In this document: one piece after another, positions 17,641 through 45,078 of the stretch
How the letters are laid out: each line of letters begins with the position of its first letter
How positions within the stretch are numbered: position 1 is the first letter of the stretch
Assembly (NCBI GenBank): GCA_023662905.1
Contig: JAMPIJ010000002.1
Coordinates: forward strand, 123,104 to 187,103
DNA length: 64,000 bases
Reading direction: 5' to 3'
Source: Fusobacterium sp.
GTDB lineage: Bacteria > Cyanobacteriota > Vampirovibrionia > Gastranaerophilales > Gastranaerophilaceae
Notes under the pieces: model-generated
Database searches by the model: none
The model's input: only the letters and a program-made list of their open reading frames with translations
What the model was told of the DNA's origin: nothing
Position numbers and translations under genes: made by a program

Positions 17641-17722
17641 ATATTTTCCCTCTTTTTACATAAAATTATATAAAAAAATCTCGGTTTCTACAAGGAATAT
17701 TCAATAAATCATATATTTGAAG

Positions 17723-17728
17723 TATTAT
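17723..17728 (+). promoter_or_regulatory. Possible -10 of recF, leaderless
   Basis: TATTAT lies six bases before the GTG at 17735. No ribosome site is visible, so the transcript would be leaderless or nearly so. The -35 (TTCAAT) is weak. Confidence 0.4.
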
Positions 17729-17734
17729 ATATTT

Positions 17735-18826
17735 GTGAGACTAAAGAATTTAACACTAAAAAATTATAGAAACTGCAAGTCAATCACGCTGGATTTAGGG
17801 TTTGACAAAATTTTGATTATTGGAAAAAACGCGCAGGGGAAAACAAATATTCTGGAAAGCGTCTATTTTCTCTCTGCACTGAAAAGCCCGAGAACTTCTA
17901 ATAATCAGGAACTTATAAATTTTGATTCCACAGAGGTCGAAATCCATTCCGACATAGTTAAAGCCGACACAGATATTGAACTTGCATATTTTTATAACCG
18001 TGAAAAAACACGCGAACTAAGAGTTAACACGCTCAAAACCACTCCGAAAAACTTCAAATCAGTGCTTCGCACGGTACTTTTTGCAACGCCCGACCTGCTT
18101 TTGCTGCGCGGAAACCCGTCAGACAGACGCGAATGGCTTGACCGCGCAATCTCACAGGTTTACCCCGCGTACGACGAAAGACTTTCAAAATACGACAAAA
18201 TCCGTATCCAAAAAAATAACTTACTCAAAAGCGACTACATAGACGAAACGCTTTTGCGCGTCTATAACGAACAAATGGCGATTGCCGGAAGCAACATAAT
18301 CTTTTTGCGCTTAAAATTCCTCAAAGAAATAGAACGGATTGCGCGCGAAAAACATAAAATTATCAGCGAAAGCGAAGAATTAAAAATCAAATACGACTGC
18401 TCATTCCTGAACGGCGAGGAGGATGTCGAAACAATTGCGCAGCTTTTCTCAGCGGCACTAGAAGAAAGAATGAGCGAAGAAATCCGCCGCGGCCAATCCT
18501 GTGTCGGCCCACAACGCGACGATATTTTATTTTATATAAACGAAAGCGAAGCGACAAAATTCGCCTCACAAGGTCAACAACGGACGGTCGTTCTTGCCCT
18601 GAAACTTTCGGAACTTGAAATAATCACGGATAAAACCGGCGAAAATCCTGTATTGCTTTTAGACGATGTGCTTGCAGAACTCGACGACATCCGCCAAAAC
18701 TTCCTGTTAAAATCAATAAAATCAGGTGTCCAAACAATAATAACGTCTGTTGACACCCTGCACTTTGAAGAAGAATTCCTCCGCGACGTGAAAATATATA
18801 ATATAGAACAAGGACGCATAAGCTAA
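17735..18826 (+). CDS. recF: DNA replication and repair protein RecF
   Basis: 363 residues from the GTG at 17735 (reading MRLKNLTLKNYRN, the family start); an ATG at 17717 lies before the -10-like TATTAT. RecF is a Rad50-like ABC ATPase that helps load RecA at gaps. Walker A IIGKNAQGKTN, signature FASQGQQRTVVLALKLSE, Walker B PVLLLDDVLAELD. About 9 kb from dnaN, not adjacent as in the classical dnaA-dnaN-recF order. Confidence 0.93.
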   Translation: MRLKNLTLKNYRNCKSITLDLGFDKILIIGKNAQGKTNILESVYFLSALKSPRTSNNQELINFDSTEVEIHSDIVKADTDIELAYFYNREKTRELRVNTLKTTPKNFKSVLRTVLFATPDLLLLRGNPSDRREWLDRAISQVYPAYDERLSKYDKIRIQKNNLLKSDYIDETLLRVYNEQMAIAGSNIIFLRLKFLKEIERIAREKHKIISESEELKIKYDCSFLNGEEDVETIAQLFSAALEERMSEEIRRGQSCVGPQRDDILFYINESEATKFASQGQQRTVVLALKLSELEIITDKTGENPVLLLDDVLAELDDIRQNFLLKSIKSGVQTIITSVDTLHFEEEFLRDVKIYNIEQGRIS

Positions 18827-24830: not shown

Positions 24831-25128
24831 AATGGAATCTGTTTTTAATTCCTCATGTGTGTAGAAGGTTAGTGTGTAGTAGGTAGTGTGTGTTAGTTTT
24901 ATATCTCGTGTTAATTTAATGCGTTTGTCGTTTAGTGTTTTGTGTTATGTCTTACATATTAATAAAGTATTTTCGTTGTATATAATTGCTATATACACCT
25001 TATTTCTTTACAATTCGTTACAAATACAAAAATCTATTGTAGAAAACTTTTGTAATTGCTGTAGAAAACATTATTGTTTTCTACATGATCCTTATGTTTT
25101 CTACAACTACTATGATAATGACAATAGG

Positions 25129-25150
25129 TTTTCTAATAGTCATTAGAAAA
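25129..25150. repeat. Inverted repeat inside origin-like region
   Basis: TTTTCTAAT (25129-25137) and its exact inverse ATTAGAAAA (25142-25150), four bases apart. Each differs from the TTTTCTACA boxes in the last two bases, so they may be weaker boxes arranged head to head. Confidence 0.6.
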
Positions 25151-25240
25151 TATTCTACAAATAATTTACAATGAAAACTATTGCTAATAGTGGCTTTCAG
25201 AAGTTTTCTACAAATATTTAGAGCTTACTATGACTATTAG

Positions 25241-25280
25241 TTTTATATATTAATTAATTTATATATATAGTAAATAATAG
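25241..25280. other. AT-rich putative unwinding element
   Basis: 38 of 40 bases are A or T, with runs such as TATATATATAG, directly after the last box. It fits a DNA unwinding element, and could also include the promoter of the gene at 25354. Confidence 0.5.
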
Positions 25281-25353
25281 AAAAAACCGCTAAGAATAAA
25301 TACTCTCCTATTGGCTTATTGTTATATACTGATTTTTAATATAAAATTTTGAA

Positions 25354-26346
25354 ATGAAAAAGCGAATTAAGATAGTTGGAAAAAATATAGCCGTAATGAT
25401 TTTGGGCCCTCTAGGAGATGTTATTAATACTTCAGGTATTTTTAAACATTTGCGTAACCTTTATCCGGATGCAAATATTTCAATAATTACAATAGATAGA
25501 GCGCTTGCTGCTGTTCAGGGTATTCCTGAAATTGATAACGTTTATTTTTTTGATAAAAGTAAATCTATTTTAAACACTATAAAATTTGGACTTTCTTTGC
25601 GTGGAAAGTTTGATACTGTAATAGTTTTGGACAATAACCTTAGAGCTGCTTATATTGCTTTTCTCACAGGTGCAAAAGTAAGAGTCGGCAGAGGCGAGCA
25701 GATGAGAGAACTTTTTTTAACAACTACTATTCCTCATCTTGATGAAGAAAAGAATTTACAGATTCATGTTTCTGAACATTACGCTAGATGTCTTATTCCA
25801 CTGGGAATTTATAAAGAGCTAGATACTTATTTTAGTTTCAAAGATGAAGATGAGAAAAATGTTTCTGAGCTTTTGAAAAAGCAAGGATTAGAAAATAAAA
25901 AACTTATCGGAATATGTCCGGCCTGTCATTTAGAATCTAAATCTTTACTGGTTCCGACAACTGCGGCTATTATTTCTAAAATTAATAAAGAAAATAAGTA
26001 TAAAGCAGTAATTATTGGCGGAAGTGATATATGCGATTATGTTGATGAGTTGAAAGAATTTTCTAATATTGAATATTATGATTTTTCAGGGAAAACTAAA
26101 TTTTTAGAAACTGCTGCATTAATAGATAAATGCGAAAAGTTTATCAGTGTTGATACAAGCTGTATGCATCTTGCGCTTGCAAGGAAAGTTCCTACTACTG
26201 CAATATTCTTTAGTAAACTTTTTAGTAAATGGGGACCTAAGGATTTGCGAAGAAACAATATAATAGTCAGCCTTGACACAAAAAACATTGATGTTGATAA
26301 AATTATGGAAAATGTTGCGGCTTTGCCTGAGAAAAATTTTAATTAA
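25354..26346 (+). CDS. Glycosyltransferase family 9 (heptosyltransferase-like)
   Basis: 330 residues. ADP-heptose:LPS heptosyltransferase fold: the N-terminal GPLGDVINTSGIFKHLRNLYP and the C-terminal FISVDTSCMHLALARKVPTTAIFFSKLFSKWGP match GT9. Likely adds a sugar to the LPS core or another envelope glycan at the inner membrane. It is a single gene between the origin-like region and dnaN, more AT-rich than its neighbours. A TATAAA eight bases before the ATG suggests a leaderless or near-leaderless transcript. Confidence 0.85.
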   Translation: MKKRIKIVGKNIAVMILGPLGDVINTSGIFKHLRNLYPDANISIITIDRALAAVQGIPEIDNVYFFDKSKSILNTIKFGLSLRGKFDTVIVLDNNLRAAYIAFLTGAKVRVGRGEQMRELFLTTTIPHLDEEKNLQIHVSEHYARCLIPLGIYKELDTYFSFKDEDEKNVSELLKKQGLENKKLIGICPACHLESKSLLVPTTAAIISKINKENKYKAVIIGGSDICDYVDELKEFSNIEYYDFSGKTKFLETAALIDKCEKFISVDTSCMHLALARKVPTTAIFFSKLFSKWGPKDLRRNNIIVSLDTKNIDVDKIMENVAALPEKNFN

Positions 26347-26540: not shown

Positions 26541-27656
26541 ATGAAGTTTGTTATAAAAAAAGAGGATTTATATAACGGTATTAAAATTGTTGAAAGAGCC
26601 ACCAGTGTCAAAGCTTTACAGCCTGTTCTTTTAAACATTTATATTGAAACAGTAGGTCAAAATTCTATTAAATTAGTTGCGACTGATTTGGATATGACTA
26701 TTGTTACAACCGTTGATGCACAGGTTGAAGAAGAAGGTAAAATAACACTTCCGTCAAAAACTTTGAACGAAATCGTTTCTAAGTTGAATGACAACCTCGT
26801 AACTTTTGAAATGGCTGCCGGCGAACCTCTTGTTCACATTACCTGCAAAAAAACAAAATTCGATATCATCGGTATCTCAGCAGATGAGTTTCCAAAAGAA
26901 TGCTCAAATGTTGAAGTTGATGAAGCTAATTGCTTTGAAATTCCTGTAAAAGTTTTGACAAAAGCTGTTAAACAAGCAGGTTTTGCAGCAGCAGCTTACG
27001 AAAACAGCAATCTTTTATCAGGTATTGTTTTCAGCCTTTCAGAAAATCAGCTTGAAGTAGCTTCAACCGACGGTAACAGACTTGCACGCGTTAGAGAATC
27101 TATCGAAAATGACAAAACTAACCTCCTTATCATTCCTGCACGTACCGTTAACGAATTCGCTAAAATCTGTTCTTTCATCGACGAAGATAACGTAAAAATT
27201 TACGCTGAAACTAACAGAATCGTTATTAAATCTGAAAAAACAACAACAATTTCAAGACTTCTTGAGGGTCAATTCCCGCAATATAACAAACTTATTCCTA
27301 ACGAAAGCCCGAAAGAAGCTATCGTTAACGTTTCACAAATGATTTCAGCGCTTGACCGCGTTTCTGTCATGGTTAACGAAAAAACAAGTATCGCTAAGTT
27401 TGAATTCACCGAAAATAACTTGAACTTAACCGCTGATACTCCTGATTCAGGTAAATCTGAAGAAAATATTGATATCGATTATGCGGCTGAAGCGTTAACA
27501 ATTGCTTTCAACTACAAATATATGCTTGAAGCTTTGAAAAATATTGATAGCGAAGAAGTTAAAATCGGTTTGAATACAAGCCTTTCTGCAACTGTTTTAA
27601 GACCTAACAGCGAAGAAGATTTCGTTTGTCTGGTAATGCCTGTTCAAATAAGATAG
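26541..27656 (+). CDS. dnaN: DNA polymerase III beta subunit (sliding clamp)
   Basis: 371 residues, standard length. Ring-forming clamp that tethers DNA polymerase. N-terminal MKFVIKKEDLYNGIKIVERATS, the VLLNIYIE region, VASTDGNRLARV, EGQFPQYNKLIP, and a C-terminal LVMPVQIR are typical. It sits about 1.2 kb from the origin-like array, in agreement with cyanobacterial origins placed next to dnaN (established for Synechococcus elongatus, as I recall). Followed closely by the Cys-rich protein gene. Confidence 0.95.
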   Translation: MKFVIKKEDLYNGIKIVERATSVKALQPVLLNIYIETVGQNSIKLVATDLDMTIVTTVDAQVEEEGKITLPSKTLNEIVSKLNDNLVTFEMAAGEPLVHITCKKTKFDIIGISADEFPKECSNVEVDEANCFEIPVKVLTKAVKQAGFAAAAYENSNLLSGIVFSLSENQLEVASTDGNRLARVRESIENDKTNLLIIPARTVNEFAKICSFIDEDNVKIYAETNRIVIKSEKTTTISRLLEGQFPQYNKLIPNESPKEAIVNVSQMISALDRVSVMVNEKTSIAKFEFTENNLNLTADTPDSGKSEENIDIDYAAEALTIAFNYKYMLEALKNIDSEEVKIGLNTSLSATVLRPNSEEDFVCLVMPVQIR

Positions 27657-30324: not shown

Positions 30325-31296
30325 ATGAAAAAAGCTTTTACTATGGCGGAGATTTTACTCTCATTGACAATCATCGGCGTGGTCGCAGCGATTACATTGC
30401 CGTCGCTCACAGGTAACATTAATGAACGCACTTGGAATACTCAGCGAAAAGCTCTTTATGCGCGTATGTCACAAGCCATATCTCTAATGCCAGCGTTGAA
30501 TGGTTACGGAACTCTAACTGAGGCAACAAGTTCTGCTTCTGCTGTTGATAATGCAGCTGAAACATTTATTACGGCTGGGCTTTCTAAAGTTTTAAAGATT
30601 AACAATATTTGTTCTGACAAACTTGAGGATTGCGGAATAGTTTCACAGATTAATACTCTTGGCGGTTCTCAGATGACAACACCGGCAACAATGAGCGCGT
30701 TAAACAATAGTATGGTAGGTTCAAGGGCTAATATACACGATAAAATGAATATCGTAGATACAAAAGCCGCAGCTTTTGAAACCGCTAATGGTGAAAGTGT
30801 CATTGTTTACTATAACCCGAATTGTTTGGGAAGTTTAAATGAAATGCCTGCAGGTGGTGGTGGTGGATATTTTGTTGCACCTAAAGTTTGTGCAAATTTT
30901 GTCTATGACCTTAACGGTAACAAAGGGCCTAATACAGTCGGAAAGGACATAGGTTTTATTACGGTAATGTACCCATCTGATCCGAAAATAGTGGCACCTT
31001 ATCCGGCAACAAATCAGTTAGATACTACATATCCGATTAAAGCCTCTGCTGGTAATATGACTGCTTCTAAAGCTTGTAATGCTTATGATTCAGAATATCG
31101 TGTTCCCAATATAGAAGAAGCCATGTCTTTATTTGTTAATAAAGAGTTGTTGAAAGGTACTTCTTCTGTATTCTCTGGTATGTATGCAACTTCTGGGGTT
31201 ATTTCAAGTTTAGTAGGTTGGCGTATAGATGCTAGTGGTCAGCTTGATGACCATAATCTTACGGTTTTAGGCAAAGTATGGTGTGTTAAACGATAA
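30325..31296 (+). CDS. Type IV pilin/pseudopilin-like protein
   Basis: 323 residues. Prepilin leader MKKAFTMAEILLSLTIIGVVAAITLPSL: a short basic leader, a peptidase site before F, the Glu at position 5 of the mature protein, and a hydrophobic helix. The mature C-terminal part carries NFVYDLNGNKGPNTVGKDIGFI and a final CVKR. A strong site GAAAGGAT precedes the ATG. Its first ~55 residues are almost identical to the pilin at 43962, while the rest differs. Substrate or fibre unknown. Confidence 0.85.
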   Translation: MKKAFTMAEILLSLTIIGVVAAITLPSLTGNINERTWNTQRKALYARMSQAISLMPALNGYGTLTEATSSASAVDNAAETFITAGLSKVLKINNICSDKLEDCGIVSQINTLGGSQMTTPATMSALNNSMVGSRANIHDKMNIVDTKAAAFETANGESVIVYYNPNCLGSLNEMPAGGGGGYFVAPKVCANFVYDLNGNKGPNTVGKDIGFITVMYPSDPKIVAPYPATNQLDTTYPIKASAGNMTASKACNAYDSEYRVPNIEEAMSLFVNKELLKGTSSVFSGMYATSGVISSLVGWRIDASGQLDDHNLTVLGKVWCVKR

Positions 31297-43927: not shown

Positions 43928-44891
43928 TAAAAGTTTTATTTTTGGAGAAAATAAAGAAATGTTAACGTCTAATACATCTAGTAAAAGTTGTATTAACCTC
44001 TTTTTTCGAGTGAGTATATTTTAAAGGCGCAGCACTCGAGCTTTGTATTCTCCAAGCTTTATTACTATTTTTTTCATCAGTAGTTCCAGACCAATAAAAA
44101 CCTCCTGCTAGAAAATTAAAGAGCTGCTTATTTAAAAGTAGAGAAGCAAGTTCATCGACATTTGGTAATCTGCTATCGTTTTCATCGTTTCTACAATACT
44201 TTACGGCATCTTGCCAGTTAGAGGTTGTATTACTGCCTATTGTAGTTGATGGCATCGGGGCAACGATTATAGAGTCTATAGAGTTAAAAACGGTCATTAT
44301 TCCGATATCCTTGCCGGCAGTATTTGGCCCCTTGCTTCCGTTAAGGTCATATATAAAATTAACGCAAATTGTTGGTGCCAGTAATTCTGTATTCAAATAT
44401 TCAGTATGGCAAATCGGATTATAATAAGCAACGATACTCTCGCCATTGGCGGTTTCAAAAGCGACAGCTTTTGTGTTTGGGGCGTAATAAGACCAACGTG
44501 AGTATGTCATATTAAAGGCGCCATTTAATGAGTATAGATTTGTAGGGATATTAACATTGTTGCCGATAATGTCCTTTACTTGAGAAACTATGCCGCAATC
44601 TTTAAAGTTATCTGTGCAAATATTGTTAATTTTAAGAACTTTGGCAAGTCCGGCTGTGACAAAAGTTTCGGCTGCGGTGTCGGTAATACTTCCCGAAGAA
44701 TCTTGACTATATGTTCCAAATCCATTGAGCGCTGGCATAAGCGATATTGCTTGTGAAAAACGAGAGTAAAGCGCTTTACGTTGTGTGTTCCACGTGCGCT
44801 CGTTAATGTTGCCTGTTAATGACGGTAGTGTAATCGCCGCAACTACACCGATAATTGTGAGGGATAGTAAGATTTCTGCCATGGTGAAGGC

Positions 44892-45078
44892 CAAGCCGAG
44901 CGGAGCCACGGAGCGGAGCGAAGAGTCGAGCGCGCGACGCGGTAGACCGCGTTCTTCCGCGCAAGCGCGAGCGGTGGCGTTCAACGCGAGGCGCAGTACC
45001 AGCGGTGCGTTCTGTGTTGACTCATACCCCCCCCCCCCGTCTCAAAAGGGCCTTATTACAAGGGTTTCCGGTTCTTTG
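44892..45078 (-). repeat. GC-rich repeat insert in pilin leader, family B
   Basis: 187 bases between codon 3 and the old codon 4 of the pilin gene. It shares CGCCTCGCG(T/A)TGAACGCCACCGCTCG and TCCGTGGCT(C/T)CGCTCGGC with the element at 60331-60396, on either side of a different hairpin (here ACGCGG-TCTA-CCGCGT). The insert adds the coding-like MNATARACAEERGLPRRALD segment. Confidence 0.7.
45027..45038. repeat. Homopolymer tract C12 (G12 on minus strand)
   Basis: Twelve C on the plus strand, in the 5' part of the pilin gene. One base fewer restores the frame. Confidence 0.9.

Follow-up and report, generated by a model that had tools for sequence, protein, structure and literature searches.

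A likely T6 DnaA box at a probable dnaN-linked replication origin in Gastranaerophilales, and a Lys433 DnaA

Upstream of dnaN in a 64-kb stretch of DNA (the window, C22:123104-187103 in a 1.74-Mb genome), a nine-base word, TTTTCTACA, is repeated several times at close distance. In this array, it has T at position 6, where the canonical DnaA box TTWTNCACA has C6. The locus raises the question of whether it is the chromosomal origin of replication and which protein reads such a box.

Box array and gene neighbourhood

Five exact copies of TTTTCTACA were located within 175 bases (25038-25212), in both orientations. Boxes 1 (25038-25046) and 2 (25060-25068) lie on the minus strand, and box 3 (25077-25085), opposite to them, box 4 (25097-25105) and box 5 (25204-25212) lie on the plus strand. 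Relatives within the genus keep the place and strand of box 1, the 22-bp spacing between boxes 1 and 2, and box 3, and the counterpart of box 5 is the same box at 12-14 nt before the DnaA-trios described below. Between boxes 4 and 5, a sequence scan gave a one-mismatch box, TATTCTACA (25151-25159, plus strand), next to a box-like inverted repeat (25129-25150) made of TTTTCTAAT (25129-25137) and ATTAGAAAA (25142-25150). Conservation of the repeat within the genus is only partial, and its arms are possibly weak DnaA sites. The five boxes, the near copy and the inverted repeat agree with a preliminary description of this DNA, which also claimed a 38-of-40 AT stretch and a gene-free setting before dnaN. 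The best 40-nt stretch (25235-25274) is indeed 38/40 A/T, scanning of the array region for genes gave no convincing one, and dnaN starts at 26541, 1.33 kb beyond the last box.

In the 64-kb window, nine copies of TTTTCTACA were observed vs. 1.33 expected, a number reached by 0 of 100 shuffles, and canonical TTWTNCACA boxes were not enriched (7 vs. 10.2 expected). Genome-wide (1.74 Mb), there are 50 copies, fewer than those of the reversed control word (63), and the array is the sole dense cluster; the genome-wide clustering check proposed earlier gave no second one. By a Poisson estimate, ~5e-8 such five-copy clusters within 175 bases would arise by chance in a genome of this length. Since the array region is AT-rich, the array could have been an artefact of chance or of low complexity in intergenic sequence, but a chance origin is ruled out by the shuffle control and by the conservation of the array in dozens of species, and the genome-wide control is also against it.

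Just left of the array, a G/T-rich stretch with repeated TGTGTAG/GTAG motifs (24852-24898) adjoins a possible terminator hairpin (AACCTATCT GAA AGATAGGTT).

A glycosyltransferase family 9 gene (25354-26346, plus strand; PF01075, E=2e-23) lies between the array and dnaN, the sliding clamp gene (26541-27656, plus strand), which was identified by its Pfam DNA_pol3_beta domains and a TIGR00663 match. The window also contains recF (17717-18826, plus strand; RecF/RecN/SMC domain), a typical origin-neighbourhood gene, and gyrA, named from its translation. The dnaA gene is unlinked: in this genome (G000), it lies at C21:9104-10459, with a full-length call by TIGR00362 (E=1.5e-137). With regard to DnaA autoregulation, the ~1.4 kb preceding dnaA in this genome contains no TTTTCTACA. 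The distance between array and dnaN is 1.2-2.0 kb in this species, L001 and G203, but elsewhere in the genus it is 0.2-0.4 kb. The former carry extra DNA between an unchanged array and dnaN and, since the enlarged distance is limited to few members of the genus, an insertion or a deletion has occurred directly at the origin.

The nearest dnaN, 99% identical, comes from a metagenome-assembled genome (MAG) labelled "uncultured Candidatus Melainabacteria bacterium", followed by those of Candidatus Gastranaerophilus phascolarctosicola and Gastranaerophilales MAGs. These relationships identify the host as a gut-dwelling, non-photosynthetic relative of cyanobacteria (Gastranaerophilales, Melainabacteria). 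Elsewhere in the window, two pilin-like proteins (30325-31296 and 43962-44984) share a nearly identical N-terminal stretch (FTMAEILLSLTIIGVVAAITLPSLTGNINERTWNTQRKALY).

Strand asymmetry and a candidate unwinding module

GC skew was computed on contig C22 (248,502 bases, joined from 20-kb pieces), one of the 54 contigs of the genome. The cumulative curve falls steadily to a minimum at 147,920 and then rises, and the array (contig positions 148,141-148,315) lies ~0.2 kb from this minimum. Skew is -0.063 across the 148 kb on the left side and +0.067 across the 100 kb on the right. The proposed sign change, with C>G on the left and G>C on the right, is thus confirmed over the 248-kb contig, and the cumulative minimum falls at the array as had been anticipated.

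On the plus strand, box 5 is followed by a 12-nt spacer, AATATTTAGAGC (25213-25224), and by the DnaA-trio repeats TTA CTA TGA CTA TTA (25225-25239; 3'-AAT GAT ACT GAT AAT-5' on the other strand), which were detected by a search blind to the box. The order in the window is TTTTCTACA - AATATTTAGAGC - TTA CTA TGA CTA TTA and then the 38/40 A/T stretch, a candidate unwinding element. The third trio is TGA and not NTA; this middle triplet (ACT) interrupts the run, so strictly two consecutive trios fit. Most relatives have 4-5 unbroken trios after the same box, and runs of at least three consecutive trios are found there. The spacer of 12 nt fits the usual peak of 10-13 bp between DnaA box and trios in other bacteria (PMC8287927). 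The oriC parts listed in the preliminary description were borne out, and the adjoining trio module, absent from it, is an addition.

The features of an oriC found here are a box cluster in gene-free DNA, a skew minimum, an AT-rich element, a link to dnaN/recF-type genes that is kept in relatives, and a full DnaA encoded in the genome. Since the array lies upstream of dnaN in relatives and is accompanied by trios and an AT-rich element, the locus is very probably the chromosomal oriC. We infer DnaA binding and unwinding of the following kind. DnaA would bind the five TTTTCTACA boxes via domain IV, load from box 5 over the 12-nt spacer onto the trios and, once loaded, open the AT-rich stretch. 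Box 5, the trios and the AT stretch, which make up the right half, would thus work as a basal unwinding system of the DnaA-box/DnaA-trio type. Base 6 would be read by residue 433, with which the recognition helix starts; in most of the class, Lys433 and T6 stand in place of the usual Asp433 and C6. To this whole explanation, an oriC with box-trio basal unwinding whose T6 box is read by a K433 DnaA, a probability of roughly 0.85 is assigned.

Conservation in the class and relation to known origins

The comparison covered the loci of 38 dnaN hits and ~100 genomes of the class and phylum. Most Gastranaerophilales genera, together with families f27, f29, f30, f32 and f34, have a TTTTCTACA array upstream of dnaN, at a distance of 0.1-0.5 kb, so the synteny of box array and dnaN holds across the order and beyond, a point that had been put forward for checking. 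In f30 and f34, dnaA immediately precedes dnaN and the boxes lie in between. This arrangement suggests that the dnaN-side origin was probably kept while dnaA would have moved away in Gastranaerophilales.

In some AT-rich regions, TATATA repeats swamped the unbiased k-mer discovery. The core TTWTNNACA was therefore used for counting sites, and the result was checked by a trio-first search, in which the box sequence is unused. This search placed TTTTCTACA 12-14 nt upstream of trios in f1, f27, f29, f30, f32 and f34. A hand count of box-n10-15-trio modules in 117 genomes of the order gave TTTTCTACA (T6) at 64 places in 59 genomes; other bases at position 6 were C (TTTTCCACA, 2), A (TTTTCAACA, 9) and G (TTTTCGACA, 2). 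A clear T6 module was not found in f28, g4, g56, g62, f33 and f35, and the strict trio-pattern search gave nothing above control level in f35, f33, g4, g56, f31 and f36. The boxes of f31, f36 and f2 were read from alignments after the strict trio pattern.

The suggestion that this lineage keeps the dnaN-linked origin and has changed its box therefore stands for the kept origin and the changed box, but not for a lineage-specific change. The change is common to most of the class and must be old. Throughout the class, one letter of a near-universal start signal seems to have been exchanged, along with the DnaA residue expected to read it.

In the cyanobacterial oriC (Synechococcus, Anabaena, Cyanothece), a box cluster adjoins dnaN and there is an AT-rich stretch (PMC4674748). 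The present locus shares the dnaN-side cluster and the AT-rich stretch, and its box is identical to the cyanobacterial TTTTCCACA at 8/9 positions, the one-base departure recognised earlier being at position 6; it differs in T6 and K433, in contrast to C6 and D433 in cyanobacteria. With the basal unwinding system of B. subtilis and many other bacteria, it has in common the proximal box, the 12-nt spacer, the middle-A repeats on the other strand (here interrupted once) and AT-rich DNA (PMC8287927), but the T6 box gives no exact match to a TTWTNCACA search. The likeness to the R boxes of E. coli oriC (TTWTNCACA) lies in the nine-base box, its two orientations and, as predicted here, DnaA domain IV as the reader, whereas C6 belongs to the E. 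coli consensus (PMC5835720) and is T6 here. A precedent for a class-wide change of the box together with domain IV changes is found in Epsilonproteobacteria, with the box core TTCAC (PMC5043019). There, in contrast, base 5 is fixed as T and C6 is kept, residues 433-434 are described as highly conserved, and variation is found at 435, 438 and 439 (PMC5043019).

The type of system is known, and the new elements are the class-wide T6/Lys433 variant and a possible recognition code. Among the matches listed, searching the literature with the motif TTTTCTACA brought up only unrelated ones, and no paper on the Melainabacteria DnaA box or the Gastranaerophilales replication origin was found in the open-access library searched. 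C6 of the DnaA box and Asp433 are treated as near-universal and origin-finding programs look for TTWTNCACA-like boxes; a T6/Lys433 class would be mis-scored by such programs. The class also offers a comparative system for how an essential initiator and its many sites shift specificity together.

Residue 433 of DnaA and base 6 of the box

Residues were numbered via a domain IV alignment to E. coli DnaA, and the numbering is consistent with the E. coli and M. tuberculosis domains of known structure. For the E. coli sequence used as ruler, the length and the residues at 399, 423 and 433-436 served as a check. The DnaA of this genome has Lys433 in place of the canonical Asp433 before His434; the comparison of domain IV recognition residues recommended beforehand thus revealed a replacement of D433 by K. 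Residue 433 is D in 33/33 DnaAs from oxygenic cyanobacteria and same-phylum families outside the class, while within the class it is K in 51 members, N in 12, and T, G, R or Q in others. It is among the DnaA residues contacting bases (PMC7561715), and 433-434 form a highly conserved dyad over Proteobacteria and Actinobacteria (PMC5043019). The other contact residues R399, H434, T435 and Y439 largely match those of cyanobacteria, and changes at P423 do not follow the box.

The box usually differs where residue 433 differs, which suggests a one-residue/one-base recognition code. In family f1 sites, base 6 is T141/A21/G7/C3 for K433 genomes and A26/C33/T1 for N433 genomes, site and genome counts not being independent of descent. 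The trio-proximal box is TTTTG(A/C)ACA with N433 (genus g64), TTATTGACA with R433 (3/3 f36 genomes; G140 by alignment alone), TTATCAACA with Q433 (one genome) and TTTTCCACA with D433 (one cyanobacterium). The observed pairs would fit ordinary hydrogen bonding, in which acids and amides pair with amino bases, Lys pairs with a keto base and Arg with G. K433 genomes also have some A6 boxes, and G198 is an exception that keeps T6 with R433 and P435. Nor is a change at position 6 by itself enough to describe family f2 (L192-L198, L084), which has Thr433 and a trio-proximal box of about TTWCTTACA that differs at position 4 too.

When domain IV was left out of the DnaA tree, the N433 genera grouped as a single clade. 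An independent-pairs test on the tree was consequently underpowered, with few independent switches available, and in a simple covariation scan the z value of residue 437 was slightly above that of 433. It is very likely that TTTTCTACA is a recoded DnaA box read by the host's own DnaA and, with less certainty, we infer direct contact, residue 433 probably being the reader of base 6. The data suggest a recognition code that is well supported descriptively, on few independent switches. We lean slightly towards the broader view that initiator and origin repeatedly co-changed via one contact in Melainabacteria, with a natural code of Asp-C, Lys-T, Asn-C/A, Gln-A and Arg-G. If true, the 433/base-6 code would illustrate a route by which a protein and a DNA site that are essential partners can be rewired.

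Other explanations of the array were weighed against this reading. DnaA box clusters outside oriC are known, such as datA (PMC5835720), and the array could be a DnaA-binding regulatory or titration site for dnaN or local genes, with the true origin elsewhere. This is improbable, since the GC-skew minimum falls at the array, the trios and the AT-rich element adjoin it, the genome has no second TTTTCTACA cluster, and the array structure is kept even with a gene between array and dnaN. A somewhat smaller chance is given to TTTTCTACA being the site of another protein, either a different initiator or a transcription factor. The word does depart from TTWTNCACA at an otherwise invariant position, and DnaA binding is a prediction here, but it is one base off the cyanobacterial DnaA box, it shows DnaA-box geometry and the trio spacing of other origins, and the same lineages carry a DnaA change at a base-contact residue.

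The most serious competitor, although still unlikely, accepts an oriC bound by DnaA and denies that T6 is caused by residue 433: both would be old co-inherited traits, and specificity would come from other domain IV changes or DNA shape. Most variation does follow clades, N433 being one of them, columns 437, 401 and 423 score about like 433 in the simple covariation scan, and A6 sites are tolerated in K433 genomes. However, among the base contacts in the literature, consistent differences from oxygenic cyanobacteria are confined to 433 and 423, and residue 423 is free to vary (P, E, S, T, Q) in K433 genomes with mostly the same TTTTCTACA box. In addition, the N, R and Q lineages each have a different base 6.

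Some lineages show further changes in domain IV. In f33 (L135, L137, L182, L256), most base-contact residues are lost (R399 to N/K, H434 to N, H439 to N, motif RGNSS), and the DNA upstream of dnaN gave no box array at these four loci; replication in these bacteria may begin at a very different box or independently of DnaA boxes. Several f1 genera (L205, L207, L098, L105, L106, L214) have Pro (KKHPT) in place of Thr435, which is key to specificity in E. coli DnaA. Among the P435 genomes of f1, others (g4) have no TTTTCTACA array near dnaN and some keep theirs. The f2 loci have a conserved TACATGTA palindrome further upstream. Finally, the N433 genera g59 and g64 (L107, L109, L216-L222) carry, besides the trio-proximal site, a row of boxes spaced at exactly 11 and 22 bp, which lies ~0.7-0.8 kb upstream of dnaN.
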